Positions 835-21,200 are shown, numbered from the stretch's first letter. The stretch: 64,000 bases of DNA from Candidatus Brevefilum sp. (GCA_029210815.1 JARGGB010000005.1:1-64000), one strand, 5' to 3'. A program made the numbers and translations. The notes: generated by a model not told the origin, from the sequence alone.

Positions 835-1089
835 TTTGTTTAAATATGCAATTCCTTGACAGAAACTTAAGTAGACTTAATCTTGGCTTTAAGGTACAAT
901 TTTCAAAGTGAAAAGTTTGGCTACTTATTGTTTATTAGAATGGTAATAAAGTGAATTATTTTTCCGTTTAAATTTTCGACAATTCATACCTGATCAAAGG
1001 AACCCTTTTCCAAATGTATTGCGCTCATCCAGCACAGTCGGCACCAGGCATACCAGGGGTAAGGGGAAAAATTCTTGAGGAGAAATAAG

Positions 1090-4000
1090 ATGAAACGTTT
1101 TCTGACTTACGTATTAACCATTGTTGTAGGGCTTTCTTTATTCTTTTTCAATGCTGGCCTGGTTGAAACTGTATCAGCCCGAGAATTACCAACGCGCGTT
1201 GTTGGTAAACATACAATGCCGGCGGTCGCCTCTGAACAGTCTTCACTTGAGGATCTCGTCGGGGCGTACGATATTCCTGGAGATGCCTCTGAAAAGGTAT
1301 CAGACGCGATATTAACGGCTGGGACTGTTGAGAAAGCAACTGCTGCTAACCTCCTATCAACGTTTACTTTTACCCCGATTGCTGACACGTATTTAAGGCA
1401 AGACGCGGCCACTACAAATTATGGTGGTGCCGTAGTATTGCAGGTGGAACCCGAAAGTACTAAACTCAAACGCACCTTGTTGAAGTTCGATTTGAGCAGT
1501 CTGGCAGCAGGTTTAGTGGTTGATTCGGCTACCTTAATCCTTGAAAAAACAGTCGGAGACGATACCCTTTATGACGTCGGTGTGTATAAAATGCTTAATA
1601 CAACACCTGCACAGTCATGGGCAGAAATGACGGCGACGTGGAATACCTATAATGGAACGACGGGTTGGACTGGCGTGGGCGCTGAGGGAGATTATGATAC
1701 AACCCCGGGCGCAACAACCTCTGTCAGCGTTGAAGGTACCTATACCTGGGATGTGACAACAATTGCCCAATCCTGGGTGAGTGGAACTTCACCAAATAAT
1801 GGCATACTGCTCAAAGGTATCACTGAACAAAAAGGCGGTCAACCATTATTTCAATTCAGCAGCAAGGAAGGAACCGTTTCCCCTCAATTAATTCTTGAGG
1901 TTTCCCAGGCGTCAGGGGCAGATCTTCAGGTAACCAAAACTGTTGATGACCTGGTCCCATTTGTGGATCAGGCGATCACCTACACTGTCGTTGTATTGAA
2001 TAACGGTCCAGATACTGCTAATAATATCAAAGTATCTGACCAGCTTCAAACGGGCCTGACGTATGTTTCCAGCACGGTTTCACAAGGCACTTACACTAAT
2101 ACAACGGGCATCTGGGACGTCGGCAATCTTGCTGCCGCCGGTGAAGCAACGCTTACCATCACAGCAACCGTGAATAGTGACGTAACACCGCTAACTGTCA
2201 TACCAAATACTGCCAGTATTCTTGCAGTGGATGAGGTAGACCTGCTCCCTGATAATGACACAGACAGCGTCGATATCACTGTGGGTCCAATTGGGTCTTC
2301 CAATTTAATCGTGACCAAAGTTGTCAATGATAATACGCCTGATGAAGGACAAACCATCACCTACACAGTCAATGTGAAAAATGATGCTGGTTCAACCGAT
2401 CCAGCTACCAGCGTCGTCATCGAAGATCTCCTCCCGTCTGGGGTTACATTTGTGTCATATACCGCCGCAGCAGGCACTTACGATCACACCACAGGATTGT
2501 GGCAGGTTGGGACCATCGCCATAAATCAAAACTTTAATCTTGTTATCACTGCCACGGTGAACAGCAGCACAGCTGCCACACAAATTGTCAACACCGCCAG
2601 TGTAAAGTCAATGGATCAGGCAGACCCAGTCCCCGGCAATGATTCAGCCTCGGTCTCAGTCACGGTTAATGGTGCTGACCTTGCCGTGACAAAAACTGTC
2701 GATAACCCCACGCCAATTGTTGGAGCCTCAATTACCTATACCGTCGTTGTTAAGAATAATGGCCCTTTGAAGGCGAATAACATTACCATCACCGACCTGC
2801 TGCCCGAAGGTGTGACCTATGTTTCCAGTACGATTTCACAAGGGACGGCTTACAACCCAGTCACTGGCGATTGGTTTGTCAACGATCTGAACGCTTTAGC
2901 CAGCGCCACACTGACAATCACGGCAACTGTGGACTACGGTTCAGAGACAACCATCACAAACACAGCCAGTGTGACCAGTGTCGTGGAGAAAGATTCAATC
3001 ACAGGCAATAACGCTGCCAGCGTTGATATCACCCTGACCGAGACTGACCTGAGCGTCACTAAAACGGCGGACCCATCGGTTGTGAATGAAGGAGACACAC
3101 TCACTTACACGGTGACCGTCTCCAACCTTGGGCCGAATAATGCCACATTGATATCAATCTATGATATGCTTCCAGCAGGTGTAACTTATGTCTCATCAAG
3201 CAGTTCTCAAGGGACGTATGACCCTGTCACGGGTTTATGGGAGCCCCTTACCCTAGCAAATGGCGAAAATACAAATCTCACAATAACCACCTCCGTTGAC
3301 ACCGGTACAGCGACCCAAACAATCACAAACGCAGCCTCAATTTCATATGCGGGACAAGTGGACTCCGTGACAGCGAACAATGTTGGCGAAGCTTCCGTCC
3401 AGGTTCGAGGTGCTGATCTTTCTATTGTAAAAACAGTCAACAACGCTTTTCCTGTACAGGGTGAAAATGTGATTTTTACACTGACCCTCACCAACAACGG
3501 GCCAGATGAGGCAACAAATATTGATGTCAAAGATGAACTTTCTTATGTCCTTGATTTTTTATTCTATACTACCAGCCAGGGAACCTATGATCCGGAAACA
3601 AGCATTTGGACTGTTGGTAATTTAGCCAACGGCAGCACTGCCACCCTGGAAATTGTTACCACCCTGGCAGAAGGGATTACTTTTGAAAACAGTGCGATTG
3701 TTTTGCATTCCGATCAGCCGGATTCAGCAACTGCAAACAATTTTTCAACGGTAACCCTGTCAGGCTCACAATATTTTAGCGCTGGTGCCTGTGTCATTGA
3801 TATGGGCATACCTACAACTGCAGCAGGACTTAAACCTTATGGTTTGATTTATGACCTCGTGATGAATTACCAGGTTCCAATTTACTGGTCCATCGATCCT
3901 GGAAAAGCCCAGGATGGGGTGGACTTCAGTGTTGATGGTAAGGATTATGCGGGCGGGCCGTTTATCATACCTGCGGAGTGGGTGTCCATTGCCCAACCTG

Positions 4001-7000
4001 CACTGGATGAATGGGCGCTAAAAGGTGTTGTCATCGATTGCGGGTTGTCAGCTTTCACAGCGCCTATTTATGACACAGTCTCAAGCATCCCAAATTCCGT
4101 CTTAGACAGGCAAAATGGTTCCATTGCGGCTAGCGCCTTTTTTACACCGGCAGAAATTCCAACCACTGCATATAAAATTGGCACTCCCGATGACCTTGTC
4201 AATTGTGACGATATTTATGTCATGCCGCATGCTGACCCTCAAAATTGGTCTGATAGCACAAAAACAATCTTCGAGAATTTCATCATGGATGGGGGGGCAT
4301 TATGGGCAGCATGCCATGCGGTCAGCGCTTTGGAAGCACCAAATTACGCCGGCATGAACTTCCTGAGTGACCCGGGCTTGTTGGATTGGAATCAACACGC
4401 TGATGCATCACACATTTTCCCGTATTTATATGATCCTGAATCGTTTGATGACCCCTTGATGCAGTTTATTGGAAATATCGAAGGTGCTCTCAATTCTGGC
4501 TCTGAGCAAATCTACATGCCCGTCAAAGGCGGCATCTGGCGGCCAACCACGACCGTGGCGGTTTGGGATCCCAATCAAGCTGATGTGCTTGCCGGCACAT
4601 TAACCGATGGCGAGGCAGCTTTAGTTGCTTATGGCCGCGCCTATGGCAACCCGGATTACGGCATGGTCATGTATGTCGCCTCTCACAACTTCCAGGATGG
4701 TTCGGTAGCAGAAAATACGGCTGCCGCTCGAACGATCGGGAACCTTCTTCTCCTTGCTGGCATTGAAAACAGACCGCAAATAAGAGCGGAAATTCCGGAT
4801 TATGTTTTCGCCGGGGAGACGGCTTACCTGACGGCAGAGATTTCAGGGGGGACGCCGCCTTATTCTTATGAGTGGACGAGTTCATGCGGCGGCACTTTTG
4901 AGGATGCCACTGCTGCAACGACCACCTTTACAGCACCCATCGTGACAGAAGAAACCGCCTGCATCATCCGTCTTGTTGCGCAGGACGCTTGTAACAGATT
5001 TAACTATTATGGTAACCCTGTCATCATTCGCGGTGCGAGAGGCCTTGAGGTCAGCAAATCAGTAACACCAGAAAAAGCAACCGGCGGCGACCTGGTGACC
5101 TACACTATCATTCCGGAATATACGGGTACCTTGGGATTATCAGACCTTGTGATCTCTGACCCCATCCCTGAACATACATCCTATGTAGGATGTACTGGGG
5201 ATTGTGTCTATGACTCTGTTTCGGATACAGTCACCTGGAACATCGGCAGCAATTTGCCAGGTACAGACGGCATTGTGGTGGGAAACCCCACAGCCTCTGG
5301 CACGGAAACGAAATTAGCTTCTGCAGACACTTATATTAAGAAGGATAAACCTCTTGAAAACAGAGGAACAGACACCACTTTATTAATAAATCCATCCACA
5401 ACGGCAACAAAACACACATTACTCCAGTTCCCACTATCTGGAATCCCGTCCGGGGCAACAATCACAAATGCAACGATGTATGTTAATGTTACAATAGCAA
5501 AAGATAACACAGCAACGGTCTATCCCCTGATCTCCTCCTGGACGGAAACTACCGCGGTTTGGGGAACCGGCTGGGCGGCTACGTCCTTCACTACCGCTGA
5601 TTATGATACAACAACCTCCTATGGAACGATTTTGAATTCCACAACAAGTTGGAAGTCCGTTAATGTGACCGATTTAGTGGACCGCTGGATCAATCAAGGC
5701 TTGACAAATAATGGCGTGGTCCTGATTGCCGGGGGCACAGTTGAAGCTGATGCGAAATATTTCAGCAGGGAAGCAAGTGCTGATCTAAATGATCCATACC
5801 TTAAGATTGATTGGGTGCTGCCGGCCACCACAGGCAGCAGGGTCAGCCTGACTCCAGAACCCTTATATGTGTCAGAAAACGGGCTGGTTACGGTGACCAT
5901 GGATGTGAATTTGTCCTATAACGCAACGCCTGTGGATATTACCCCACCAGCAGATTTGACCATTAACGGTGGTGTGTCGGCTGTTCTGGTTAGCGGTCCT
6001 GAACCTGCCAGTGATACAATTTCATCTGGCGGTGGCACGGTTAGTTTTACCTATGTATATGATGTATCAGCAGGAGAATTGCCGAGCTCTCTAACGTTCT
6101 CTGGGACACCGACTACCACAGCCAGTGATGTATCCTTTGTTGAAGGAGAATCTAAAAATGTTCTTGTTGTGCCAGTGTTGACGTTTCAGGTCAGAGTGGA
6201 TGACCCTTTGGATGCAACGGTAAACCAGATCACAAATACAGTTTCAGCCTGTGACTCGCTTGCATTTGCAGACCCCAACTGTCGCTATGATGATGCGGTT
6301 ATTTCGACCTATTCCGCTGGCGCTTCAATTGGTGACTCAATTTGGTTAGATGAGGACAGTGATGGTGTGCAGGATGCCGGTGAATCGGGCATTGCCAATG
6401 TTGAGGTGCTCGCCACCTGGTACGGCCCGGATGGTGTAGCTGGCGGTGGCGATGATGTCACATATTCCACCTGGACGGACAGCAACGGGGAGTATCTGTT
6501 TACAGACTTACCAGCAGGCAATTACAGCATCGCTGTGAACACAGATACTCTTGCAGATGGCTTGGAAGCCAACCCAACTTACGATAGTGACGGAATTGCG
6601 ACGGCGAATACCACAAAGTTGACTGTGACAGCTGGTGAAGAAAGCGATGTGGCTGACTTTGGCTACAACTGGTCCGCCACATCGGATGTGACAGGCGGTA
6701 CTGGTCTTGGCGCAATCGGCGACAGCTTGTGGATTGATGCTGATGGCGACGGTATTCAGGACCCGGGGGAACCCGGCCTGGGTGGCGTCACCGTGACCTT
6801 GTATACCGATCCTGATGGTGATGGCATCTACGATACGCCCTATGCAACAACGGTAACCGCGGCAGATGGCAGCTATATTTTTGACAATCTTCCTGCTGGC
6901 GCCTATGTTGTTCAAGTTACGCCGCCTGATGGCTATACACCCACTGGCGATCCGGATGGGACGTTTGACAATCAGTCCAACCCAATCCCGCTGGCGCCAG

Positions 7001-10000
7001 GGGATGTGGTCGTCGGCATGGATTTTGGCTACCAGCCAAATGCAGGTGTTGGCGCGACCATCGGTGACAGCATTTGGTTAGATGCGGATACGGATGGATT
7101 CCACGACGCAGGAGAACCACCAATTTCAGGTGTCACGGTGAGCCTGATTGAAGACACCAATGGCAACGGGGTTTGGGATCCGGGGGAACCCATCATTTCT
7201 TCCACTGTCACAGATGCAAATGGTACTTATTCATTCGACGGCGTTCCTGTTGGCGGTGATTACCTCGTTTGGGTCAATGATACAAACGGTGTCTTGAGTG
7301 ATTTGGCGCCCACTTATGATTCCGATGAAATAGCTACAGCAAATATCAGTGCTGTGACAGACTTAACTGCATTGGGCGACGACAGCCAGGATTTTGGGTA
7401 TGCGCCCCCAGCACAAATTGATGAAAACAGCTCAATATCTTCTACCATTTGGTTTGACACAAATGGTGATGGGGTTCAAAACATTGATGAGATTGGCATC
7501 CCGGGTGTTTTGGTAACCCTGACGGATGGTGAAAAAACCTGGACGACCTACACGGACGCAAATGGTGATTACTTCTTTGGCGATCTTCCCGCCGGTGACT
7601 ACACCGTGACGGTTGATCCATCTAATTTTGAACCCGGTGGTATCTTAGAAACACTTTTAACCACCTATGACTCTGATGGTGGATTTGATAATACTTCAGA
7701 GGTCACACTGCTGACCAATGACTCTGCCGATATTAATCAGGATTTTGGTTATACCGGTACAGATCCCCTGTTGAACAGCCTGAGTTCATCGGTTTATGTT
7801 GATGCAGATGGGGATGGCAGACGTGACTCTAAAGAACCTGGTATTGAAGGCATTGTTGTTGAATTGCTTTGGTATGGACCGGATGGTGTTCCTGGCGGTG
7901 ATGATGATGTGATTTACACAACCATCACAGGGCCAGATGGAAACTATAGTTTTGAGAATCTTCCCGACGGTTTGTTTGATATATACATTGATGTCGAGGC
8001 ATACAGCAAACCAGGCGGGCTGCTGGAAGGTTTGAACCCCACAGATGTCGGATTAGATGCAGCAGCAACCATTGATTTAGATTCAGATAATTTGATTCCC
8101 TCTGGAATAACAACCACAACCGTACCCTTTGGCTTCTCACCCTCTGATGGTTTTGGAGACGAAGGAGTCATTGGCGATGTCATTTACATTGACCTGGATG
8201 GGGATGGGATGCCCGATTCAGGGGAAGGTATTCCCGGGGTTCTGGTAACCCTGACAGATGGTACGGATACCTGGACAACCTACACCGATGCAAACGGCAA
8301 TTACATCTTTGGAGACCTCCCTGCCGGCGTTTATACTGTGACGGTTGACCCGACAAACTTCGGTCTTGGAGGGGTATTAGAGGGATTGACAAATGCTTAT
8401 GACCCGGATGGGGGTGGGGATAATACATCCTCAGTAACGCTGATTTCCAATCTGGCTGTTAATCTTGATCAGGATTTTGGATATACCGGAACAAATAGCA
8501 ACCTGAACAGTGTTACCTCAACAGTATTTGTAGACATTGATGGCGATGGTATCCAGGATACAGGCGAAGAAGGCATTAAAGGTGTGGTTGTTGAATTAAC
8601 CTGGTATGGTCCTGATGGCGTCCCTGGGGGGGGGGATGATGTCATCTATACAACCCTGACTGACGCGAACGGGGATTATACCTTTGATTATTTACCTGAT
8701 GGGTATTACAGTATTACAACGGATCTGGATGCAAATACAGATCCTGGTGGTGTTCTTGAAGGTTTATATCCCACAGATCCGGGATTGGATCGAACAGGAA
8801 CATTCTCACTTGACCCAGATAACTCATCTGGGGTAGGCGTGACAGAAACTGATCAGAGCATGGGAAATTCACCAAGTTCTAAATTACTCAATACTGGATT
8901 AATCGGAGACTCCATTTTCCTCGACCTGGACGGTGATGGCATTCAAAGTCCCGATGAAGGGTTGGAAGGTGTAGTTGTAGAACTTTACGACAGCACTGGC
9001 ACGATTTTACTGGCGACAACCACAACCAACGAAAACGGTAACTACTATTTTGGTGGTCTGGGTATTGATAGCACCTACATTGTTAAAGTAGATACCACCA
9101 CCTTACCTAACGGCGGCATCGGACTTACGAACACCGTAGATCCCGATTTGGGTGCTGATAGCACATCACAATTTACGATTACCGCTACAGAATTGATCCA
9201 ATTGGATCAGGATTTTGGTTACCAAGCCACAACCCCGAACACAATTTCAGGCACAATCTGGAAGGATTTAGATGGTGATGGCTTTATGGATGCAACTGAG
9301 GTCGAGGGATTGGCTGGGATAACAATTACCCTGTATGATGAATTTGGAAACATTGTTGCCACAACGACGACAGATGAAAATGGGGATTATAGCTTCCCTG
9401 GTTTGCCCGATGGCACCTACACGGTTGATGTGACGGATGATGCGAATCTCTTGAATGGTTACTGGCATTCAGAGGGTACTGCTGGTGTCGATGGCTACAG
9501 TCAGTCTGATCCATATACAGTGGCTGTTAGCGGTGGTGAGCTTGTTGAAAGTGATTTTGGTTACTACCAAACTCCAGCTTCCGTCGGCAGCTTCGTTTGG
9601 AACGATATAGATGCTGATGGTATCCAGGATACAGGTGAAATGGGCATCGCCAACCTGAAAGTCACCCTGACGATTACTTATCCGAACGGCGATGAGGTTG
9701 TCCTTGTAACATTCACAGATGCCAATGGCGAGTACAGTTTCGATAATCTCCTACTGGATGAAAATTATAACGGTGCCGGTCCCGGTGAACCCACCTTTAC
9801 CCTCACGGCTGAAATCCCTTCAGGTTACTATGTCTCCGAAGCGAATGTCGGCGTAGACGATACTGTTGACTCAGATGGTGCTTGGTCTGAAGCAGGTTCG
9901 ACAGTGACGCTAGCCTCTGGAACACTGGTCATGGGAGTTGAGAACCTCGATGTTGACTTTGGTCTGACAGCCTCACCCACGGCGTTATTCCTGCCCACGA

Positions 10001-10302
10001 ATTTCAAAGCAGATTACGCCAATGGCGGTGTGCGCTTAAGCTGGGATTCTCAGAACCCAATTATTCGCCGCTTCAGGATAGAGGTGTCAAATGAAGCATC
10101 AATTGAGCGAGAATGGGCAGAACTGGCGGTGGTCAATGCCGAATTTGGCACCATTCATTACGAGTGGTTCGATCAAAATACGGTACCGGGTATCGTTTAT
10201 AACTACAAGCTGATTGTGATTTACGATGGTGACACGTATGAGGTTGGCCCTGCTTCAATTACCGGTCCGTTTAATACATTCGTTCCACTAATAAATAAGT
10301 GA
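1090..10302 (+). CDS. Giant secreted repeat protein: signal peptide, two DNRLRE-like modules, DUF11 repeats, SdrD-B-like repeats, C-terminal FN3-like module
   Basis: ATG at 1090 preceded by GAGGAG (the ORF-track start at 1075 is a TTG). Signal-like MKRFLTYVLTIVVGLSLFFFNAGLVETVSA; repeated (A)DLxVTKTV...YTVVVxNNGP; repeated IGDSIWLDxDxDGxQDxGExGIxGVxV...G.Y.F.DLPAG.Y. Confidence 0.9.
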   Translation: MKRFLTYVLTIVVGLSLFFFNAGLVETVSARELPTRVVGKHTMPAVASEQSSLEDLVGAYDIPGDASEKVSDAILTAGTVEKATAANLLSTFTFTPIADTYLRQDAATTNYGGAVVLQVEPESTKLKRTLLKFDLSSLAAGLVVDSATLILEKTVGDDTLYDVGVYKMLNTTPAQSWAEMTATWNTYNGTTGWTGVGAEGDYDTTPGATTSVSVEGTYTWDVTTIAQSWVSGTSPNNGILLKGITEQKGGQPLFQFSSKEGTVSPQLILEVSQASGADLQVTKTVDDLVPFVDQAITYTVVVLNNGPDTANNIKVSDQLQTGLTYVSSTVSQGTYTNTTGIWDVGNLAAAGEATLTITATVNSDVTPLTVIPNTASILAVDEVDLLPDNDTDSVDITVGPIGSSNLIVTKVVNDNTPDEGQTITYTVNVKNDAGSTDPATSVVIEDLLPSGVTFVSYTAAAGTYDHTTGLWQVGTIAINQNFNLVITATVNSSTAATQIVNTASVKSMDQADPVPGNDSASVSVTVNGADLAVTKTVDNPTPIVGASITYTVVVKNNGPLKANNITITDLLPEGVTYVSSTISQGTAYNPVTGDWFVNDLNALASATLTITATVDYGSETTITNTASVTSVVEKDSITGNNAASVDITLTETDLSVTKTADPSVVNEGDTLTYTVTVSNLGPNNATLISIYDMLPAGVTYVSSSSSQGTYDPVTGLWEPLTLANGENTNLTITTSVDTGTATQTITNAASISYAGQVDSVTANNVGEASVQVRGADLSIVKTVNNAFPVQGENVIFTLTLTNNGPDEATNIDVKDELSYVLDFLFYTTSQGTYDPETSIWTVGNLANGSTATLEIVTTLAEGITFENSAIVLHSDQPDSATANNFSTVTLSGSQYFSAGACVIDMGIPTTAAGLKPYGLIYDLVMNYQVPIYWSIDPGKAQDGVDFSVDGKDYAGGPFIIPAEWVSIAQPALDEWALKGVVIDCGLSAFTAPIYDTVSSIPNSVLDRQNGSIAASAFFTPAEIPTTAYKIGTPDDLVNCDDIYVMPHADPQNWSDSTKTIFENFIMDGGALWAACHAVSALEAPNYAGMNFLSDPGLLDWNQHADASHIFPYLYDPESFDDPLMQFIGNIEGALNSGSEQIYMPVKGGIWRPTTTVAVWDPNQADVLAGTLTDGEAALVAYGRAYGNPDYGMVMYVASHNFQDGSVAENTAAARTIGNLLLLAGIENRPQIRAEIPDYVFAGETAYLTAEISGGTPPYSYEWTSSCGGTFEDATAATTTFTAPIVTEETACIIRLVAQDACNRFNYYGNPVIIRGARGLEVSKSVTPEKATGGDLVTYTIIPEYTGTLGLSDLVISDPIPEHTSYVGCTGDCVYDSVSDTVTWNIGSNLPGTDGIVVGNPTASGTETKLASADTYIKKDKPLENRGTDTTLLINPSTTATKHTLLQFPLSGIPSGATITNATMYVNVTIAKDNTATVYPLISSWTETTAVWGTGWAATSFTTADYDTTTSYGTILNSTTSWKSVNVTDLVDRWINQGLTNNGVVLIAGGTVEADAKYFSREASADLNDPYLKIDWVLPATTGSRVSLTPEPLYVSENGLVTVTMDVNLSYNATPVDITPPADLTINGGVSAVLVSGPEPASDTISSGGGTVSFTYVYDVSAGELPSSLTFSGTPTTTASDVSFVEGESKNVLVVPVLTFQVRVDDPLDATVNQITNTVSACDSLAFADPNCRYDDAVISTYSAGASIGDSIWLDEDSDGVQDAGESGIANVEVLATWYGPDGVAGGGDDVTYSTWTDSNGEYLFTDLPAGNYSIAVNTDTLADGLEANPTYDSDGIATANTTKLTVTAGEESDVADFGYNWSATSDVTGGTGLGAIGDSLWIDADGDGIQDPGEPGLGGVTVTLYTDPDGDGIYDTPYATTVTAADGSYIFDNLPAGAYVVQVTPPDGYTPTGDPDGTFDNQSNPIPLAPGDVVVGMDFGYQPNAGVGATIGDSIWLDADTDGFHDAGEPPISGVTVSLIEDTNGNGVWDPGEPIISSTVTDANGTYSFDGVPVGGDYLVWVNDTNGVLSDLAPTYDSDEIATANISAVTDLTALGDDSQDFGYAPPAQIDENSSISSTIWFDTNGDGVQNIDEIGIPGVLVTLTDGEKTWTTYTDANGDYFFGDLPAGDYTVTVDPSNFEPGGILETLLTTYDSDGGFDNTSEVTLLTNDSADINQDFGYTGTDPLLNSLSSSVYVDADGDGRRDSKEPGIEGIVVELLWYGPDGVPGGDDDVIYTTITGPDGNYSFENLPDGLFDIYIDVEAYSKPGGLLEGLNPTDVGLDAAATIDLDSDNLIPSGITTTTVPFGFSPSDGFGDEGVIGDVIYIDLDGDGMPDSGEGIPGVLVTLTDGTDTWTTYTDANGNYIFGDLPAGVYTVTVDPTNFGLGGVLEGLTNAYDPDGGGDNTSSVTLISNLAVNLDQDFGYTGTNSNLNSVTSTVFVDIDGDGIQDTGEEGIKGVVVELTWYGPDGVPGGGDDVIYTTLTDANGDYTFDYLPDGYYSITTDLDANTDPGGVLEGLYPTDPGLDRTGTFSLDPDNSSGVGVTETDQSMGNSPSSKLLNTGLIGDSIFLDLDGDGIQSPDEGLEGVVVELYDSTGTILLATTTTNENGNYYFGGLGIDSTYIVKVDTTTLPNGGIGLTNTVDPDLGADSTSQFTITATELIQLDQDFGYQATTPNTISGTIWKDLDGDGFMDATEVEGLAGITITLYDEFGNIVATTTTDENGDYSFPGLPDGTYTVDVTDDANLLNGYWHSEGTAGVDGYSQSDPYTVAVSGGELVESDFGYYQTPASVGSFVWNDIDADGIQDTGEMGIANLKVTLTITYPNGDEVVLVTFTDANGEYSFDNLLLDENYNGAGPGEPTFTLTAEIPSGYYVSEANVGVDDTVDSDGAWSEAGSTVTLASGTLVMGVENLDVDFGLTASPTALFLPTNFKADYANGGVRLSWDSQNPIIRRFRIEVSNEASIEREWAELAVVNAEFGTIHYEWFDQNTVPGIVYNYKLIVIYDGDTYEVGPASITGPFNTFVPLINK
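1915..3765 (+). repeat. Array of about five DUF11 repeats inside the giant protein
   Basis: Successive GADLQVTKTV, SNLIVTKVV, GADLAVTKTV, TDLSVTKTAD, GADLSIVKTV units, each with a 'TYVSSxxSQGTYDxxTGxW' segment. Confidence 0.85.
6319..9970 (+). repeat. Array of ten SdrD-B/Cna-B-like repeats with DxDxDG calcium-type motifs
   Basis: Ten copies read directly: WLDEDSDGVQD, WIDADGDGIQD, WLDADTDGFHD, WFDTNGDGVQN, YVDADGDGRRD, YIDLDGDGMPD, FVDIDGDGIQD, FLDLDGDGIQS, WKDLDGDGFMD, WNDIDADGIQD. Confidence 0.85.
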
Positions 10303-10323: not shown

Positions 10324-10357
10324 AATGGGTCTGTGAGGCTGTTTTCTCAGACCCATT
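10324..10357 (+). terminator. Hairpin between the giant repeat protein and the pqqD-like gene
   Basis: Perfect inverted repeat AATGGGTCTG (10324-10333)/CAGACCCATT (10348-10357); only a weak T-run further downstream. Confidence 0.5.
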
Positions 10358-10376
10358 CTATGGAGTAAATTTTTAA

Positions 10377-10673
10377 GTGACACAAAATTTAGAAGCTGTT
10401 TTTCAACACGATCCCAACATCGTCAGCCGAAATATCGCCGGCGAGATGATCCTTGTACCCATTCGCAGCAACGTCTCAGATATGGCTTTTGTTTATACCC
10501 TGAATGAAACTGGGGCGATGATCTGGGAAAATCTTAATGGGAAGAATTCATTGAACGAAATTATTCAGTTAATGGTTGAAGCCTACCAGGTCTCACCAGA
10601 GGAGGCACAGCAGGATATATCCGATTTAATCAACAACCTTCAAGACATTGATGCCCTGGAAGCGGTTTCCTAA
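10377..10673 (+). CDS. PqqD-like RiPP recognition element (RRE) protein
   Basis: 98 aa, GTG start; architecture ...FVYTLNETGAMIWENLNGKNSLNEIIQLMVEAYQVSPEEAQQDISDLINNLQDIDAL is PqqD-like; immediately upstream of a radical SAM gene. Confidence 0.85.
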   Translation: MTQNLEAVFQHDPNIVSRNIAGEMILVPIRSNVSDMAFVYTLNETGAMIWENLNGKNSLNEIIQLMVEAYQVSPEEAQQDISDLINNLQDIDALEAVS

Positions 10674-10685
10674 TAAAGGAATGAT

Positions 10686-11780
10686 ATGATCTGTTCACAA
10701 CTCAATGAATTAGCCTATCTTGATTTCGGACAGCAAATGTTCAACAACGTGGGTCAGCAGCACATTCCGCTGATTGTCTCTGCAGAGGTGACCATGCGCT
10801 GTAATTTACGCTGCAAGCATTGCTATATCCCCATGGCAATGCGTAAAGGTCCAGATTATCAGGAATTGTCCCTGAAAGAGTATGAGAAGTACTTTGCGGA
10901 ATTTGCCGATGCCGGGACTTTGTGGCTGCTGCTGACCGGAGGTGAGCCATTTTTACGTCCGGATTTTCTGGAGATTTATGATGCAGCTAAACGACAAGGC
11001 TTTATCATTACGATTTTTACCAATGGCACCCTGATACAGGAGCATCATCTAAAGCACCTGGCTGAATACCGACCATTTAATGTTGAAATTACCCTGTATG
11101 GCGCCACACAACAGACCTACGAGGGTGTCACAGGTGTTCCTGGTTCTTACCAGCGATGCATGCAGGCAATTGAAGGCATTCTGGCACATAACTTGCCCCT
11201 TAAATTAAAAAGTACCCTCTCAACCCTTAACGTCCATGAACTCAACCAGATGGAGAAGTTGGCTGAAAGTTTCGGTTTACAATTTTATTTTGACCCTGTT
11301 ATCTCCTCTCGGATTGATGGTGATCATACCCCCCTGCAATACAGGCTGACAGCAGATAGGATTGCAGCGATTGAAGCCAGGGATGAAAATCGAGCAAGAG
11401 AATGGCATCACCTTTATAATTTAGATTTTGATTTGGAAGATCGAGCAGGCAAGATGTATATATGTGGTGCTGGCCGAACTGGGCTTCATATGGATTCAAC
11501 CGGGAAACTGTCCCTTTGTATGTCATCCCGGGCGCCGCAGTATGACCTGCGCCGGGGTAGTTTTCAGCAAGCCTGGGATGTTTTTTTTCCTGAATTAATT
11601 GAGAGACAATATTCCAGGAAAATTCTTTGTCATGATTGTGCTTTACGTGGTGTTTGTGGTGCGTGCCCTGCTTCTGCTTATATTGAAGTCGGTGATTTTG
11701 AAGGTGTGGATCCCTTTGCCTGTGAATTAACCCACGAAAGAGCAAAGATCTTCCTTGCAAAAACCACGAAAGTGGAGTAA
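10686..11780 (+). CDS. Radical SAM/SPASM peptide-modifying enzyme
   Basis: Cluster motif MRCNLRCKHCYIP (CxxxCxxC); LLTGGEPFLRPDF; C-terminal Cys-rich SPASM (CGAG...LCMSS...CHDCALRGVCGACPASAYIEVGD...FACE). Confidence 0.92.
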   Translation: MICSQLNELAYLDFGQQMFNNVGQQHIPLIVSAEVTMRCNLRCKHCYIPMAMRKGPDYQELSLKEYEKYFAEFADAGTLWLLLTGGEPFLRPDFLEIYDAAKRQGFIITIFTNGTLIQEHHLKHLAEYRPFNVEITLYGATQQTYEGVTGVPGSYQRCMQAIEGILAHNLPLKLKSTLSTLNVHELNQMEKLAESFGLQFYFDPVISSRIDGDHTPLQYRLTADRIAAIEARDENRAREWHHLYNLDFDLEDRAGKMYICGAGRTGLHMDSTGKLSLCMSSRAPQYDLRRGSFQQAWDVFFPELIERQYSRKILCHDCALRGVCGACPASAYIEVGDFEGVDPFACELTHERAKIFLAKTTKVE

Positions 11781-11823
11781 TTTTATATGAAATGTATATT
11801 TTTAAAAAAATTTGGAGCATATT

Positions 11824-12024
11824 ATGGTTCAGGTAAACAACAAAAAAGCAAAACCTAATACGGATGAAAGAAAATCTTACGTCAAACCAGAGCTGGTACA
11901 GGTCCATCTTGTGGCTGAACAAGCTGTTCTGGCATTGTGTAAAACAGGCGGAGGCTTATCATCTAAAAATGATTGTATTGCTGCTGGTGGCTATTTGACC
12001 TGTGCATCAAGCGGGACAAGTTAA
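11824..12024 (+). CDS. Putative RiPP precursor peptide (66 aa, three Cys in core)
   Basis: ATG 11824 with GGAG 11814-11817 (ORF-track start 11812 is TTG within the SD region). MVQVNNKKAKPNTDERKSYVKPELVQVHLVAEQAVLALCKTGGGLSSKNDCIAAGGYLTCASSGTS; sits between rSAM and kinase genes. Confidence 0.75.
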   Translation: MVQVNNKKAKPNTDERKSYVKPELVQVHLVAEQAVLALCKTGGGLSSKNDCIAAGGYLTCASSGTS

Positions 12025-12050
12025 GATGGTATGGTGATTAATAACTAATT

Positions 12051-12914
12051 ATGCCTGAATCGGTTGTTATCAGTATTGGCGATATTCCTATTCAGTTGGA
12101 TCCAGATATTATTAGTGGAGATTTCCAATTTGAAAAGAAAATGGAAGATTTTATCAGTGATTTAACACCCAAAATTTATCTTAATGTCTTTTGCGGATCC
12201 TTCCCAGAAAATATACATCAAGAGATTATATTTGAAACAAACATTTCCTGGCGTTTTGGGAGATTAGGTCATAAATGGGTGATCAGTTATCCTGAGGTGT
12301 CTGCACATCAGTTAGGTATTTTTAATCGTGATTTTTCTAATGGTAATATTTATGTGTCAAACGAAAACGGTGATGAAAATCACTTTATATTTCCATTATC
12401 CTATCCAATGGGAGAGCTGTTAATGATCAACCTCTTAGGCCTTGATAGGGGAATAATGCTCCATGCATCTGGTGTTATCTATAAGGGTGAAGGGTATCTC
12501 TTTCCCGGTCAGGGTGGTGCAGGCAAGTCAACAATAGCAAGATTGTGGAATCAATTACCAGGTGTAGAAGCAATCAATGACGATAAAGTCATCCTTCGAA
12601 AAATGGGTGATACATATTTTATTTATGGCACACCCTGGCATGGTGAAGGGGGACTGGCATTGCCCCAATCTGCCCCCTTAAAACAAATTTTTTTGATTGA
12701 AAAATCGGAACACAATTACATTTCAGCCCTCTCACAGACACAGTCAATCATCCGAATCATGAATGGGGCATTTTTACCACTCTGGGACCAACAAAAAATG
12801 GATTTTACACTTGGTTTTTTGAGCGATCTCACAAAGGACATCTCCGTTCAGGAATTGGGCTTTGTTCCTGATAAAAGTATCATCGATTTTATTCTTAACT
12901 TACCGATAAATTAA
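12051..12914 (+). CDS. HprK-like (HPr kinase-related) P-loop kinase
   Basis: 287 aa with LHASGVIYKGEGYLFPGQGGAGKSTIARLW (Walker A) and AINDDKVILRK; resembles HprK-related kinases of RiPP clusters. Confidence 0.8.
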   Translation: MPESVVISIGDIPIQLDPDIISGDFQFEKKMEDFISDLTPKIYLNVFCGSFPENIHQEIIFETNISWRFGRLGHKWVISYPEVSAHQLGIFNRDFSNGNIYVSNENGDENHFIFPLSYPMGELLMINLLGLDRGIMLHASGVIYKGEGYLFPGQGGAGKSTIARLWNQLPGVEAINDDKVILRKMGDTYFIYGTPWHGEGGLALPQSAPLKQIFLIEKSEHNYISALSQTQSIIRIMNGAFLPLWDQQKMDFTLGFLSDLTKDISVQELGFVPDKSIIDFILNLPIN

Positions 12915-12932: not shown

Positions 12933-15900
12933 ATGGATAAACACAAGGACAGGAAGCCAATCAGGGGAAAATTGATCATAATTCTCATGATTGGGATGAT
13001 CATTGGGTCATTCTACAGGACAACCAGTTCCGCAGAACCACTGCAGATGTCAATTGAAGGTCCAAACGATTTATACCCCTATCTAACGATGGTCAGCAGC
13101 ACCGCTGAAAGTATTGTGTTGGAATTTACGCCACCACGACCTGAATTTATACAAATGAATACGGATTCAGGCGGTTGTCAGAGCCCATCCATATTGGGCT
13201 TATCCAATAGTGCAGGCAAAGGTCAACCCGAGCTCCCCAGCCAAGGTGTGCTGATCGGTATGCCTGTACAGGCGCAGCAGCCCAATCTGGAGGTTATCTC
13301 AGCTAACACCATAACCCTGGATGAGACCTATCAGCTTTGTGCTGGTCAGGACCTTGAGGTCAACTCGATTGAAAGGGATATCTTCAGCCTTCCTGAGCTG
13401 CGCACGGCACAAATTTCACCGGTCAATCAATTTCTGCCGGTTGATCCCGCCGTCCTGGTTTCCCAGGGGATGATCAGAAATCAAGCTTATATTTCCCTTC
13501 AATTTAACCCCATCCAATACAATTCGTATTCAGGGGTAGTTCAATACACCAGTAACATCCGGGTTGAAATCAACTTCAATGCGCCGCAGACATCTCTTGA
13601 TGTTAACAGCCAATTTATAGAAGATCCCTATTTTGAAGACAACTATCAGCGGTTGCTGATCAATTATGAACAAGCGAAAGCATGGCGAAAGGAACCCACC
13701 AGCACTGCCTTGCGGACAGACCCTGAAAGCACTTTGGTAGAACCAGAGTCATTTTATATGGAGTCTCCTCTATATAAAATCACCGTAACCGAAACGGGAA
13801 TTTATCAACTCAACTATACGGACCTGGCTGGTGCAGGACTTCCCGTAGATACGCTGGACCCCCATACTTTAAAATTATTCTACCAGGATCAGGAGATACC
13901 AATTCGAGTCATCGGTGAAGCAGATGGTTCCTTCGACGATGGGGACACCATTTTATTTTTTGGTGAACAAATTAATTCCTTGTATACCGAAGAAAATGTG
14001 TATTGGTTAGGTTATGACGGTGAGGACGGATTACGAATGGAAGGTTTGGATGGTTCTCCTTCAGATTCCACAATTCCAGAAGAATTTCTAAAGAATCTGA
14101 GAATTGAAAAGGATAACGAATATTTTTGGGAAGCGCCAAGTGGGACTTATGATGATAATTGGTATACAACTGTTATCTATGGAAACGGCAGTGTTGATAT
14201 TCCATTCAATCTACCTGCATTAAGTCCCATAGGACATGAAATCCAATTGCGTGGTCTTGTGAGACCTTATGACTATAACAACGGTCTTCCCCACCTCCGT
14301 CTTTATATAAATGGGGCAGTGTTTTTTGATGATGTGGTGAGTGATAATGAAGCATTCAATATCGATACAACATTAGGACAATCGGATTTGTTAGAGGGTG
14401 TTAATACACTCACCATTGAAACGGTCGCTTCACCAGATATTCTAATTAATTGGTTTGAACTGGATTATTTTGGAGCTTATCATGCGGTGAATGATCTGCT
14501 TTATTTTGATGGAGAAGGACCTGGATCATTAACATTCCATTTAAATGACTTCAGCACAGATCAAGTTGAGATTCTCGACATCACCGATCCCTTCTATGTA
14601 AAGAATATCGAAAATGCATCCATCGTTTCAACAGTTGGTGGCTTTCAGGTAAAATTTGACGCCGCCATCTCAGAAGAGCACCATTACCTGGCATTATCAT
14701 CGACGAATTTCCTTTCACCGGCGAGTATCAATTTAGACACAGACTCAAATTGGAAATCCCCTACCAATGGCGCTGACTATATCATCGTCAGCCATGCGGA
14801 CTTCTTAGATGCCATGCAGCCCCTCGTTGATTTTCGTGAAAACCAGGGATATCGGGTTGTCCTGGTGGATGTTCAGGATGTGTATGATGAGTTTAATGGG
14901 GGTGTTTTCGACCCGAATGCGATCCAAACTTTCTTGCAGTATGCCTATGAAAATTGGACAACACCGGCACCGAGTTTTGTTTTGCTGGTTGGGGATGGGC
15001 ATTGGGACTATAAAAATGCTTATGGGACTGGAGAATTAAATTACATCCCCCCTATCCTGGCTGATGTGGACCCGTGGATGAGTGAAACAGCGACTGATAA
15101 TGCTTTTGTTAGTGTTTCCGGTGACGATAACCTGCCGGATTTGCACTTGGGCCGCTTCCCAGTTTCAACGGTCGCTGAAGCACAGGCGATGGTGGCTAAC
15201 GTCCTTTCTTATGAGCAGACGCCCCCCGCCAGTGATTGGAACACCAAATTAACCTTTCTCGCCGATAATGCCGACAGCGGTGGGGATTACGCCGCTGAAT
15301 CGGATGATGCCATAACGGTGCTTCCTGTTGATTACACCGCTGATAAGATTTATTACGGTGTGAATTATACAGATGCAGGGCTGGCAAAAAGCGATTTCAT
15401 TGCAAACATCAATGAGGGTCGCCTTATCATTCATTATGCCGGACATGCTGGCTTTACTCAGTGGGCAAGCGAGAAACTATTTAGTGTGTCAAACCTCTCC
15501 TCCTTAACAAATGCCGGAAAATTACCTTTGGTGTTACCCATGACGTGCATTGATGGATATTATGTTTATCCTGGTATTCCCTCACTTGGTGAAAGCATTG
15601 TCAGGATGAATGATACCGGGGCTATCGCCAGTTTCTCGCCCACAGGCTATGGGTTGACCTCGGGGCACAGCGTGATGGCAGAAAGTATATTGGATCACTT
15701 GTTCAACAAGTACTACACTCAGTTAGGGTATCTGACCACACAGGCCAAGTATGACCTGTTTGCAGCCTCGCCCAGTCAACCTTACTTACTTGATACTTAC
15801 ATGTTATTCGGTGACCCGGCGCTGCGCCTGCAGACTGTCCCGGTGGATCTTGATGATCCCAGCGACCTGGCTGCAGCTGCGGTGTCAAATAATCAAATTG

Positions 15901-16739
15901 ATCTTTCATGGACGGATAATTCAGACCCAGAGAGCGCCTTTTTAATTGAGCGCTCACCATCGGGCTTGGATGGCACCTGGATGCAAATTGCCAGTTTGGA
16001 AGAAAACGCCACAACCTACAGCGATACCGGCTTATCAAAAGACACAACCTATTTCTACCGTGTCAGGGCTTATCGTTTTGCAGATGATCAATATTCCGAT
16101 TACACCAATACAGCCTCTGCGACGACGCTTAATTTGCCTGAAACGCCCACAGACCTGGCTGCGCTGTCAGTTTCGACACAACAGATTAACCTGAGTTGGA
16201 CAGACAATGCGGATGATGAAACAGCCTATTTCATCGAGCGCTCTCCTGATGGCGTGGGTGATTGGACATTGATTGCTGAAATCTCAGCAGACGCAACAGC
16301 GTACAGTGATACAGGGCTGACCCCTGGAACAACTTATTATTATCGTGTAAGGGCATACCGGGCTGACGATGGGTTATACTCCCCGTATTCGAACATCGCT
16401 TTTGCACAAACACATGATTTGCCAGCAGCACCCACGGATCTTACTGCGGAGGCGAAGTCAATCGAACAAATCGATCTGAGTTGGACCGACAACGCAGATG
16501 ATGAAACCGCCTATACCATCGAGCGCTCTCCTGATGGGGTGGTTGATTGGACATTGATTGCTGAAATCTCAGCAGACGCAACAGCGTACAGTGATACAGG
16601 GCTGACCCCTGGAACAACTTATTATTATCGTGTAAGGGCATACCGGGCAATTGATCAGCAGTATTCACCCTATTCAAATGTGGCAAGTGCGGTTACCGAT
16701 AAATTGATCAATCTGTTCCTACCCATTATTTTTCACTAG
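12933..16739 (+). CDS. Gingipain-type (peptidase C25) secreted cysteine protease with C-terminal FN3 repeats
   Basis: N-terminal TM/signal segment; LIIHYAGHAG (catalytic His) and LPLVLPMTCIDG (catalytic Cys); TFLQYAYENWTTPAPSFVLLVGDGHWDYKN; three FN3-like repeats; ends LFLPIIFH. Confidence 0.88.
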   Translation: MDKHKDRKPIRGKLIIILMIGMIIGSFYRTTSSAEPLQMSIEGPNDLYPYLTMVSSTAESIVLEFTPPRPEFIQMNTDSGGCQSPSILGLSNSAGKGQPELPSQGVLIGMPVQAQQPNLEVISANTITLDETYQLCAGQDLEVNSIERDIFSLPELRTAQISPVNQFLPVDPAVLVSQGMIRNQAYISLQFNPIQYNSYSGVVQYTSNIRVEINFNAPQTSLDVNSQFIEDPYFEDNYQRLLINYEQAKAWRKEPTSTALRTDPESTLVEPESFYMESPLYKITVTETGIYQLNYTDLAGAGLPVDTLDPHTLKLFYQDQEIPIRVIGEADGSFDDGDTILFFGEQINSLYTEENVYWLGYDGEDGLRMEGLDGSPSDSTIPEEFLKNLRIEKDNEYFWEAPSGTYDDNWYTTVIYGNGSVDIPFNLPALSPIGHEIQLRGLVRPYDYNNGLPHLRLYINGAVFFDDVVSDNEAFNIDTTLGQSDLLEGVNTLTIETVASPDILINWFELDYFGAYHAVNDLLYFDGEGPGSLTFHLNDFSTDQVEILDITDPFYVKNIENASIVSTVGGFQVKFDAAISEEHHYLALSSTNFLSPASINLDTDSNWKSPTNGADYIIVSHADFLDAMQPLVDFRENQGYRVVLVDVQDVYDEFNGGVFDPNAIQTFLQYAYENWTTPAPSFVLLVGDGHWDYKNAYGTGELNYIPPILADVDPWMSETATDNAFVSVSGDDNLPDLHLGRFPVSTVAEAQAMVANVLSYEQTPPASDWNTKLTFLADNADSGGDYAAESDDAITVLPVDYTADKIYYGVNYTDAGLAKSDFIANINEGRLIIHYAGHAGFTQWASEKLFSVSNLSSLTNAGKLPLVLPMTCIDGYYVYPGIPSLGESIVRMNDTGAIASFSPTGYGLTSGHSVMAESILDHLFNKYYTQLGYLTTQAKYDLFAASPSQPYLLDTYMLFGDPALRLQTVPVDLDDPSDLAAAAVSNNQIDLSWTDNSDPESAFLIERSPSGLDGTWMQIASLEENATTYSDTGLSKDTTYFYRVRAYRFADDQYSDYTNTASATTLNLPETPTDLAALSVSTQQINLSWTDNADDETAYFIERSPDGVGDWTLIAEISADATAYSDTGLTPGTTYYYRVRAYRADDGLYSPYSNIAFAQTHDLPAAPTDLTAEAKSIEQIDLSWTDNADDETAYTIERSPDGVVDWTLIAEISADATAYSDTGLTPGTTYYYRVRAYRAIDQQYSPYSNVASAVTDKLINLFLPIIFH
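15850..16700 (+). repeat. Three tandem FN3-like repeats at the C-terminus of the C25 protease
   Basis: Repeated 'PTDLxAxxxSxxQIxLSWTDNxxDExAYxIERSPxGxxDWTLIAEISADATAYSDTGLTPGTTYYYRVRAYRAxDxxYSPYSN'. Confidence 0.85.
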
Positions 16740-17303: not shown

Positions 17304-19160
17304 ATGGAGATTAAACAATATCTAAATATTTTTAAACGCTGGGTCTGGTTTCTCATCTTAGGGTTGATTGTTGGTTCGGGACTTGGTTATTTTCTAAGTC
17401 TACGCCAAGCACCCGTTTACCAGGCTGAATCTCGATTTATCATCCTGACTGCAGCGCCAACCAGCGAATTCCAGATGTATTTTAATTACATAGATAGTGC
17501 CCAGCTTATTTTAACATATATGGAACTTCTATCTGCGGATTCGACCATTGAACAGGCTTCTCAGGAATTGGGTTTTAGAATATCGGCAGGTCAGGCAAAA
17601 GCTGAACGTGTAGGTGAGACCCAGTTTATCCGCTTGGTTGTCAAAAATAATGATCCGGAAAAGGCTGCTGCGATTGCAAATGGATTAGTTAAAATACTGA
17701 TTGAACAAAACGAAGAGCTGCAGTCCATCCGGTATGTCACGACGGAACAGAATTTACAAAATCGCATCAGTCAAGCAGAACAACAAATCGCAAGTATTCA
17801 ACAACAGATCAATGATATGTCTACAGCTTACGTTCAGGAAAACCTGAGTGAGGTCACAGCGCAAATTGATACGCTACAAAATGAGATCAATATTCTGGAA
17901 AATAACATTGACGAATTCAACCCTTATGCCATGACGGATGAAGAAGAAGCGCAAATGGTTGAATACCAGGACCAGTTAGACCAGCTTAAACCTGTTTTGG
18001 AACTTTACCGGGAAATTTACACGAACCTGGTTGTGTTGGGTCGGGGTGTTGAAGGTGGAATGAGCGAAACAACCCAATTAAGCCAGCTTCAATTCACACT
18101 TGATCTTTTTCAACAAATTTATATCAGCAGCATGGCCAGCCTGGAAAGCTTACAACTTTCACGGGCCCAGAGCATACCCAACGTGGTTCAAACAGAACCA
18201 GCAAAAGTGCCCTCCCAACCAATTTCTCCTAAACCAATGCATACTGCAGCTTTGGCTGGGGTTGTCGGATTGTTGATAACCGGTGGGCTGGCTTTTTTGA
18301 TTGAGTATCTCGATGACACGGTTAAAACCCCTGATGAGGTAAAACAGCTTACAGGCTTACCGGTGATCGGCTATGTCTCTGAACTGCAATCTCGATCTAA
18401 AAAGAAAGATCAGAATGGAAAATATTTATTTGTCTCAGAACAACCACGATCAGCAGTAACCGAAGCTTTGCGTTCTTTGCGTACAAATTTAGAATATTCC
18501 GCTGTAGATCATCCAGCAAAAACCATTGCTATCACGAGTGTAAATCCTGAAGAAGGGAAGTCAACCATCGCTTCAAATTTGGCGCTCACCATTGCTCAAA
18601 GTGGTAAGAAAACGCTTTTGCTGGACGCTGATATGCGCCGTCCCAATGTTCACAGTTTTTTTGGAATCTATAACCGGGTTGGATTAAGTGATTTGTTGCG
18701 GAACAATCTCCAATTTGATCAGATAGTGAAGCCACATGGGTCATCCCCTAATCTTCATATTATCACAAGCGGAAGTTTACCGCCTAATCCTGCAGAATTG
18801 CTGGGAAGTAAAAAAATGAAAACATTATTGGAAACTTTTAAGCAGGATTTTGATATGATTATTATGGATACTTCACCCATGGTTGTAGCTGATCCTCAGA
18901 TCCTCGCAACAAGATGCGATGGTGTTATCTTTATTGTTCAGCCTGGAATGACGCGCAGCAATCACCTTTCATCCAGTATTCAACAACTGGAACATATTAA
19001 CGCAAGAATTCTTGGAATTGTGTTTAACCGAATACCCCGCCGACGCAATGCCTACTACAACGGCTATTACTATTCATATCATTATTCAAAAGATAAAAAT
19101 GAGTATTTTGGGCAAGATAATGCTGGAAATGAAAATATGAGTCTTAAGAATGGGACTTAA
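17304..19160 (+). CDS. Polysaccharide co-polymerase/bacterial tyrosine kinase (Wzz-type + CpsD-type)
   Basis: N-terminal Wzz domain with coiled-coil; C-terminal SVNPEEGKSTIASNLALTIAQSGKKTLLLDADMRRP (Walker A and A'); Tyr-rich tail NAYYNGYYYSYHYSKDKNEYFG. Confidence 0.92.
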   Translation: MEIKQYLNIFKRWVWFLILGLIVGSGLGYFLSLRQAPVYQAESRFIILTAAPTSEFQMYFNYIDSAQLILTYMELLSADSTIEQASQELGFRISAGQAKAERVGETQFIRLVVKNNDPEKAAAIANGLVKILIEQNEELQSIRYVTTEQNLQNRISQAEQQIASIQQQINDMSTAYVQENLSEVTAQIDTLQNEINILENNIDEFNPYAMTDEEEAQMVEYQDQLDQLKPVLELYREIYTNLVVLGRGVEGGMSETTQLSQLQFTLDLFQQIYISSMASLESLQLSRAQSIPNVVQTEPAKVPSQPISPKPMHTAALAGVVGLLITGGLAFLIEYLDDTVKTPDEVKQLTGLPVIGYVSELQSRSKKKDQNGKYLFVSEQPRSAVTEALRSLRTNLEYSAVDHPAKTIAITSVNPEEGKSTIASNLALTIAQSGKKTLLLDADMRRPNVHSFFGIYNRVGLSDLLRNNLQFDQIVKPHGSSPNLHIITSGSLPPNPAELLGSKKMKTLLETFKQDFDMIIMDTSPMVVADPQILATRCDGVIFIVQPGMTRSNHLSSSIQQLEHINARILGIVFNRIPRRRNAYYNGYYYSYHYSKDKNEYFGQDNAGNENMSLKNGT

Positions 19161-19300: not shown

Positions 19301-21200
19301 ATGGATATTCGAAGAATTTTGACAATATTAAAACGGTGGCTTTAGCTTCTGGTATGAAGTGCGCTTATTGCAGACGGTATGGGATATTTTATAAGCAATC
19401 GACAAACACCCATGTATCAGACTAGCACAAGGTTTGTTGTTTTGAGAGCGGCTACCACGGGTTATGATTACTATGCATTCCTGGATTACCAGCAGCTTCT
19501 ATCAACCCATACCCAATTACTTTCCACAGATGCTCTACTTTCACAAGTTTCTGATGAGGTTGGTTTTCCTGTTTATGCTGGGCAGGCGAATGCTCAGCAG
19601 ATTGATGAAACCCAATTTATTCGCTTGACAGTTACGCACCAGGATCCAGTTAAAGCCGTAACGATTGCCAATACTCTTGTAAATGTTCTGATTGAGCAGA
19701 ATGAGGAACTGCAGTCTGTGCGCTATGTTACAACCAAACAAAATATGCAGAATCGTGCCAATCAAGCGCTAAACCAGATGCAAATATTGCAGGACCAGAT
19801 TGAAGAACTTTCCATCACAACCCTTGAAAGGCAAATTGAGGAGGTTTAGAATCAAATTGATGAAATTCAAACTCAGGTTACAGATTTGGAATTTAACATT
19901 TCAAGTAATGATCCCCTTTTTGCCACGGAAGAAGAGATTTTACAACGATTTCAATTCCAAGATGAATTAGATCAAATTCAAGCACTTCTTGAATTGTATC
20001 AGGAAATCTACACCCAGCTGGTTGTTATGGGTGAGCCTATGCAAAATGAGAATAGCTCCTCAATCCAAATAGCTAGGCTTGAAAGAACGCTCGACCTTTA
20101 TGAACAATTTTATTTCACAAGCCTTAGCTCCCTTGAGAATATCAATCTCACACAGGCACAAAGCACACCAAATGTTGTTCAAGTGGAACCTGCTGTGATT
20201 CCCAGCGGACCAATTTCTCCACGGCCTTTCCAATCAGCAACTTTATATGCCGCAGTAGGCCTTCTTATCACAGGTGGTGTTGCTTTTTTAGTCGAATACC
20301 TTGATGATACAATAAAGACGCCCGATGAAGTCAAGAGTTTGCTCCAGCTGCCTGTGATTGGTTTGGTGGGTGATATGGAAGAAGCAAGTTTTCAAAATAA
20401 AGGGAATCTTCAAAATATCTATGTCGCACAGCATCCCCGATCGCCAATTTCAGAAGCTTTTCGGTCTTTACGAACAAGTCTTGAATTTTACAGTGTTGAT
20501 TCTCCATTGGAAATATTAAGTATCACAAGCTCTGGTCCTGAGGAAGGTAAGACGACTATTGCGGCAAATTTGTCGGTCATACTTGCCAGCGGGAATAAGA
20601 AAGTCTTATTGTTGGATGCAGATTTAAGGCGCCCGAACATCCATAAGATGTTTAGTGTGATAAATCGTGTAGGTCTTTCAGATTTGTTACGAGGAAATTT
20701 AGATTATTCAGAGGTCATTCATACTTTTGATGAAATTGCAAATCTAAGTATCATTACTTCCGGCAGCTTACCCCCTAATCCTGCTGAACTTGTTGCCAGC
20801 AAGAAAATGAATAGTATCATTGATGAATTGAAATCTTCATTCGATATGATTATCATCGACACACCCCCTGCAATTGTTACCGATTCCTAAATTGTAGCCA
20901 GCAAAGCAGATGGTTTATTCCTGAGACCTGGGGAAACTCGCTCAGTGACCGTCCAGACGCCCCTGGAGGAATTCCACAGGGTTGGCGCAAATATGATTGG
21001 TGTTGTCATGAACCGAATTCACCGCAACCGGGGGGTATTATTACAGTGGATATGAATATTATGCACCTGGAGCGCAATTCAGTGAAAAATACTATCGTTT
21101 TGAGAGTGATATTGGACCACTAAGTGAAGCCAATAACTCTAATGATGATAAATTTGTTGATAATAAAACTGCAGAGCCTAATAAAGCACCATTGGAATGA
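19301..21200 (+). pseudogene. Decayed paralogue of the Wzz/BY-kinase
   Basis: Homologous to 17304-19160 along its length. In-frame stops TAG 19343, TGA 19355, TAG 19847, TAA 20888, then a frameshift at the G6 run near 21030-21036, after which the Tyr-rich tail YYYSGYEYYAPGAQFSEKYYRF resumes. Confidence 0.88.

Follow-up and report, generated by a model that had tools for sequence, protein, structure and literature searches.

We describe here what is, with a probability that we put at about two in three, a RiPP biosynthetic locus that joins a lasso-type front end to radical SAM chemistry. The locus lies within a 64,000-nt stretch of DNA, analysed on one strand and hereafter called the window, from Candidatus Brevefilum sp. 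(GCA_029210815.1 JARGGB010000005.1:1-64000). The host belongs to the Chloroflexota, whose peptide natural products are, to our knowledge, hardly known, and its genome of 2.66 Mb is 96%-complete. The genes, the conservation and selection of the peptide, the lasso-type motifs, the linkage to a C25 peptidase and the absence of the lasso enzymes B2 and C were all observed directly, and they are consistent with the following series of steps. A B1-like RRE would hold the YxxPxL leader and present the precursor to a radical SAM/SPASM enzyme, which would introduce radical-based cross-links, most likely thioethers from three conserved Cys. Like a lasso kinase, the HprK-like kinase would act on the precursor while it is still linear, phosphorylating most likely Ser66, and removal of the leader would follow modification. 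As there is no lasso protease B2 in the genome, the C25 peptidase, or the S26-like signal peptidase of sister loci, would be the best candidate for final processing; alternatively, C25 may be the partner on which the product acts, together with surface proteins that C25 handles.

Between positions 10377 and 12914 four genes follow one another on the plus strand, separated by 12, 43 and 26 nt, and so as tightly packed as the initial annotation had described them. They encode a discrete RRE of PqqD-like/lasso B1-like type (10377-10673, GTG start, 98 aa; Pfam PqqD 60 bits), a radical SAM/SPASM peptide maturase (10686-11780, ATG start, 364 aa; Pfam Radical_SAM 79.8 bits), a 66-aa Cys-containing precursor peptide (11824-12024, ATG start) and an HprK-like kinase (12051-12914, ATG start, 287 aa). 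The operon-like run extends beyond 12914, as the gene for a secreted C25 (gingipain/PorU-like) peptidase (12933..16739, plus strand, 1268 aa; Pfam Peptidase_C25 301.5 bits) starts 18 nt past the kinase. On the other side, the gene for a giant secreted surface protein (1075..10302, plus strand), an ORF of 3075 aa with Pfam DUF11 and SdrD_B/SpaA-type repeats, stops 74 nt ahead of the RRE gene. Between these two genes lies an RNA hairpin on the same strand (10324..10358), with a perfect 10-bp stem and three inner pairs (MFE -17.9 kcal/mol, z -2.3). A T-run was looked for directly 3' of it and none is there; the hairpin is a possible attenuator or processing site.

The precursor (MVQVNNKKAKPNTDERKSYVKPELVQVHLVAEQAVLALCKTGGGLSSKNDCIAAGGYLTCASSGTS) starts at the ATG at 11824, which is preceded about 8 nt upstream by GGAG; an alternative TTG start at 11812 would add 4 residues. 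Its leader contains the lasso-type recognition motif Y19-V-K-P22-E-L24 (11878..11895, plus strand), and its predicted core (11938..12021, plus strand) combines a three-Cys pattern (C39, C51 and C60) with a C-terminal Ser66. No second precursor of this kind was found in a six-frame search of the whole 64-kb window, and the peptide has no match in the Pfam or NCBIfam libraries, as might be expected if the four genes were a chance neighbourhood and the small ORF no precursor. That explanation is refuted, since the same arrangement is found over many families and several classes and is under purifying selection. The initial annotation had staked its RiPP-type reading, namely an RRE, a radical SAM/SPASM enzyme, a Cys-containing precursor and an HprK-like kinase, on the peptide being conserved beside homologous radical SAM and kinase genes. 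Indeed, a peptide with the pattern [YW]xxPx[LIV]...C and 2-6 Cys accompanies the module in 24 of the 26 sub-family-1 loci, and the module as a whole is conserved. One of the two exceptions is cut by a contig end (L043), and the other (L059) has an unlisted candidate upstream of its RRE gene.

The leader motif [YW]xxPx[LIV] was present in all 35 collected precursors, with Y as its first residue in 31, and 29 of the 35 have exactly three Cys. The cores vary strongly apart from the Cys and the C-terminus. Ratios of dN/dS for close precursor pairs were 0.24 (0.15/0.62) for L034/L039, 0.14 (0.27/1.90) for L054/L055 and 0.04 (0.024/0.69) for L105/L108, and the family is under purifying selection; with dN/dS well below 1 and conservation beside the module, a chance ORF is ruled out. 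The locus has what is looked for in a RiPP system: a short precursor gene with a conserved leader and a variable Cys core, beside modifying enzymes. In one locus (L104:882-1238, minus strand) the precursor gene occurs twice in tandem; the two leaders are nearly identical but the cores differ, and both peptides have a KxGS end.

Of the 396 genomes of the class that were searched with the radical SAM protein, 34 gave a match at E <= 1e-40; 400 genomes drawn from the whole phylum added copies from other classes. The phylum search also placed the locus in a family whose genomes measure 6-7 Mb (L103, L105-L110) and which possibly includes cultured strains. The host genome itself holds a second, divergent copy (G000:C58, L055). 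PqqD, HprK and a small peptide recur around the radical SAM relatives: none of the 26 loci in the window's sub-family lacks a PqqD-like gene, and HprK is missing only from L038 and from two loci cut by a contig end. In a second sub-family (L062-L072) the gene order is HprK-RRE-radical SAM, often with two C25 genes.

The best NCBIfam match of the RRE is lasso_PqqD_Bac, below cut-off. When a profile of the RRE family was compared with solved structures, the first match was the lasso B1 protein TbiB1 (5v1u, 2e-10), followed by 9x90 (a lasso PqqD-family chaperone), 9x8z (a PqqD-family protein) and TfuB1 (6jx3), with PqqD itself ranking behind these four. The YxxPxL leader motif is what lasso RREs read (PMC10368454), and in a survey of RRE motifs, most of them class-specific, YxxP was the lasso motif (PMC12710340). 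Judged by its sequence, the front end of the locus, a B1-type RRE with a YxxPxL leader, is therefore of the lasso type, and the RRE probably binds the YxxPxL leader of the precursor. Our search of the open literature found no paper on a radical SAM enzyme with a YxxP leader.

The phosphorylated lasso peptides paeninodin, pseudomycoidin and BsfA share with this locus the B1-type RRE, the YxxPxL leader, an HprK-like kinase and the C-terminal Ser/Thr. They differ in that the window's genome has a radical SAM/SPASM enzyme instead of B2 and cyclase C, and in that the core has three Cys and there is no ABC exporter. Neither the lasso protease B2 (PF13471) nor the lasso cyclase C family (PF00733, Asn_synthase) had a match in the 96%-complete genome, and this genome-wide absence rules out the lasso peptide class, even though the RRE, leader and kinase remain lasso-like. 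These three lasso-like parts could also have been left by a diverged or broken lasso cluster to which the radical SAM enzyme was a late tailoring addition, and a few relatives do carry a B2-like Transglut_core3 (L064 and L049) or NTP_transf_5 (L038, L041, L045 and L068). Yet such an origin is highly improbable for a module that is conserved and under selection, not decayed, in a genome where neither Transglut_core3 nor Asn_synthase has a match. Since such genes persist in these relatives, it would seem that lasso and radical SAM clusters exchange parts. If the lasso-type recognition and phosphorylation parts indeed work with a radical SAM enzyme, as we infer, RiPP front ends would be exchangeable modules. 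In L064 (L064:5043-7941) the lasso B2-like protease adjoins the kinase.

The radical SAM motif C39-x3-C43-x2-C46 is invariant in 26 of 26 relatives, as are the SPASM-type Cys 260, 278, 315, 318, 324 and 327, while Cys 346 is kept in 25 of the 26. A maturase with CxxxCxxC and SPASM Cys is the hallmark of the ranthipeptides and sactipeptides (PapB, CteB, SkfB, AlbA), which the locus resembles in its radical SAM/SPASM enzyme, its two auxiliary-cluster Cys sets and its Cys peptide; it departs from them in that its RRE is separate and lasso-type and in that it has an HprK-like kinase and a C25 partner. Scores against the NCBIfam maturase models, in bits against the cut-off, were 76.3/340 for PapB, 55/850 for AlbA and 70/625 for StsB. 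As three core Cys are conserved, the predicted cross-linking by this enzyme is most likely the formation of thioethers from these residues; the precursor cores show no conserved residue that could serve as thioether acceptor. The PADLOC viperin models also match the enzyme, only through the shared radical SAM core, and a viperin-like role in defence was rejected.

Instead, the precursor might, like PqqA and MftA, give rise to a prosthetic group or small redox cofactor rather than a peptide product, with the kinase serving activation or transfer. An RRE, a radical SAM/SPASM enzyme and a small peptide without an exporter make up the pattern of PQQ and mycofactocin loci, and mycofact_rSAM and PqqE are among the better NCBIfam matches of the radical SAM enzyme. 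Nor is the module regularly accompanied by an ABC exporter of its own: ABC_tran occurs in just 2 of 71 neighbours, one of which (L034) is ABC-F-like by sequence. Nonetheless we consider a cofactor distinctly unlikely, as the strong variation of the cores outside the Cys and C-terminus is unlike that of a cofactor precursor, the leader is lasso-type, there is no dehydrogenase and no further PQQ or mycofactocin gene, and both models score far below cut-off.

The kinase has no Pfam family over cut-off, and its NCBIfam matches to ScmC (5e-6) and HprK_rel_B (2e-4) are both below cut-off. A profile of its family nevertheless reaches the HprK structures 1ko7 and 1jb1, and the protein has H138, the P-loop G153-Q-G-G-A-G-K-S-T161 and D177-D178. 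H138, G153, G158, K159 and T161 are invariant in 27 relatives, and G156 and D178 are kept in at least 90% of them. The lasso kinase BsfK has the motif H148-G163-G166-G168-K169-S170-D186-D187 (PMC10368454), and the window kinase carries the same lasso-kinase pattern, H...G..G.GKS...DD, in H138, G153, G156, G158, K159, S160, D177 and D178. An AlphaFold model of the kinase from a two-row alignment reached a pLDDT of 34 and was discarded.

The site that lasso kinases of the HprK-like type phosphorylate in the linear precursor is its C-terminal Ser (PMC8498205, PMC9266682), and in lasso clusters with such a kinase this Ser is the conserved, modified site (PMC9266682, PMC8498205); BsfA is instead phosphorylated at core Ser3 (PMC10368454). 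Of the 23 CK/CR-type precursors, 22 terminate in Ser or Thr, among them that of the window, with GTS. In a first precursor set, C-terminal S/T was found in 19 of 28 against a Ser/Thr background of 15% in the core, a comparison uncorrected for relatedness. Given this conservation and the kinase motif, Ser66 is most likely the target of the kinase in the window precursor, by analogy with the lasso systems. A second precursor clade, which includes L055 from the same genome, mostly lacks C-terminal S/T; its cores instead open with C[NHF][TS]S, which would fit a BsfK-like phosphorylation site; since most of its members are without C-terminal S/T, the site used by the kinase may differ in this clade. 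With a compact locus and so simple a motif (a YxxPxL leader, three Cys and a C-terminal Ser), both of the proposed chemistries could be tested in E. coli.

The nearest named system is SynChlorMet (ScmC TIGR04249, ScmD TIGR04248, ScmE TIGR04250, ScmF TIGR04251), which likewise combines a PqqD-like RRE, radical SAM/SPASM enzymes and an HprK-like protein, and whose models are among the NCBIfam matches of the RRE, radical SAM enzyme and kinase of the window. Membership was rejected on the scores, which in bits against the cut-off were 25.9/125 for ScmC, 27.6/100 for ScmD, 100.5/400 for ScmE and 74/400 for ScmF. Unlike SynChlorMet, the window locus has one radical SAM enzyme, not two, and is linked to C25. 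We found no paper naming SynChlorMet in the open literature. Because NCBIfam already names this cassette, the combination of PqqD-like, radical SAM and HprK-like proteins is not new as such, and the locus, put forward by the initial annotation as a candidate new RiPP system, is one member of a phylum-wide family. What sets it apart is a form with a single radical SAM enzyme and a leader of lasso type, the rule of a C-terminal Ser/Thr, and C25 as partner; these features are outside the SynChlorMet cut-offs, and the open-literature search likewise found no paper on them. There is a fair chance that the chemistry makes this a separate RiPP class. A variant comprising L001 (L001:370-6441), L057, L060 and L061 has further radical SAM genes together with PqqD and S26-like genes and no C25 nearby, and is closer to SynChlorMet; in L001, L060 and L061 the radical SAM and HprK proteins are fused and there are WxxP precursors.

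The C25 peptidase is part of the RiPP system. Its protein consists of a signal/anchor, a Propeptide_C25, the C25 domain, three FN3 domains and the tail NLFLPIIFH, and the catalytic His (YAGHAG) and Cys (TCIDG) of peptidase family C25 are present in 53 of 53 sequences. It resembles the gingipains and PorU, the type IX secretion sortase, in the C25 domain, the propeptide and the invariant catalytic His and Cys, but it scores 280 bits, below the PorU cut-off of 420, has a Chloroflexota host and is coupled to a RiPP module. The link to a C25 protease that the initial annotation had drawn held up well: of the 23 loci whose flanks were long enough for assessment, 22 have a C25 peptidase like that of the window next to the module and co-oriented with it, against about 0.7% expected from the density of C25 in these genomes. 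Likewise, 32 of the 34 genomes with the radical SAM gene have C25, as do 198 of the 362 others (Fisher p 2e-6). The RiPP-linked sequences cluster in the C25 domain tree, with 4 label changes against 14.6 in shuffled trees (0 of 5000 as low). Tree congruence (r 0.58, with 0.32 as the highest value among permutations) is weak evidence because common descent can yield the same. In genomes without a radical SAM match, 20 strong C25 loci were examined and most of them lack RiPP genes, so C25 has a wider role and one of its subfamilies is tied to the RiPP module. No paper on C25 in RiPP clusters was found in the open literature. An S26-like signal peptidase gene occurs in about half of the loci and is absent from the window.

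The second link of that annotation, to the giant surface protein, stands in part. In several relatives the gene ahead of the module encodes a smaller secreted surface protein of SpaA/DUF11 type, matching the giant protein of the window in position and domain type; these two shared features are the extent of the association, and nothing beyond them ties the giant protein to the module. It may be, then, that the RiPP product regulates, protects or anchors C25 and its surface partners rather than being released as an antibiotic or signal. This is possible, though we hold it only tentatively. The near-constant co-oriented adjacency of C25, the coherence of the RiPP-linked C25 subfamily, the SpaA/DUF11 surface proteins upstream and the lack of a dedicated exporter near the module all speak for it; however, C25 could equally be a mere maturation protease, and common descent alone may account for the congruent trees. 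Rather unlikely, in so complete a form, is a distinct Chloroflexota RiPP class in which a lasso-type RRE feeds the radical SAM enzyme and the peptide, once cross-linked and phosphorylated at its C-terminus, has a dedicated partner in the gingipain/PorU-like C25, which would free it extracellularly or join it, sortase-like, to the SpaA/DUF11 surface proteins encoded alongside. Under our preferred reading, the C25 data tie a modified peptide to a secreted peptidase of gingipain type across the phylum, in a way that can be tested.

A short C-terminal tail resembling [FY]-L-P-[LI]-x-x-[RK], possibly for sorting, is shared by many C25 peptidases of Chloroflexota and by surface proteins next to them. 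In the window such tails are TFVPLINK in the giant protein (10250-10302) and NLFLPIIFH in C25 (16700-16739), and among the C25 peptidases of L035-L072 they include IFLPLILR (L044), IYLPLILR (L063) and VYLPLVAR (L069). In addition, an FN3-like domain (W[ERS]T..E..NLGFNIYRA...) was seen in 32 ORFs that encode a C25 peptidase or lie next to one (L041, L042, L044-L050, L052, L054, L055, L062-L070 and others). Its matches are mostly in separate secreted or membrane proteins, which are perhaps partners of C25.

Elsewhere in the window, after a Wzz/tyrosine-autokinase gene (17304-19160) comes another copy, which is broken into ORFs at 19379-19849 and 19886-20890 and looks decayed. Within 23865-26356, genes for a mutator-type transposase and a tyrosine recombinase, both on the minus strand, lie beside a tRNA-Gly (26285-26356); from the sequence this is likely a mobile-element insertion site. 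Much of the region from 32 to 63 kb is taken up by an exopolysaccharide-type locus.
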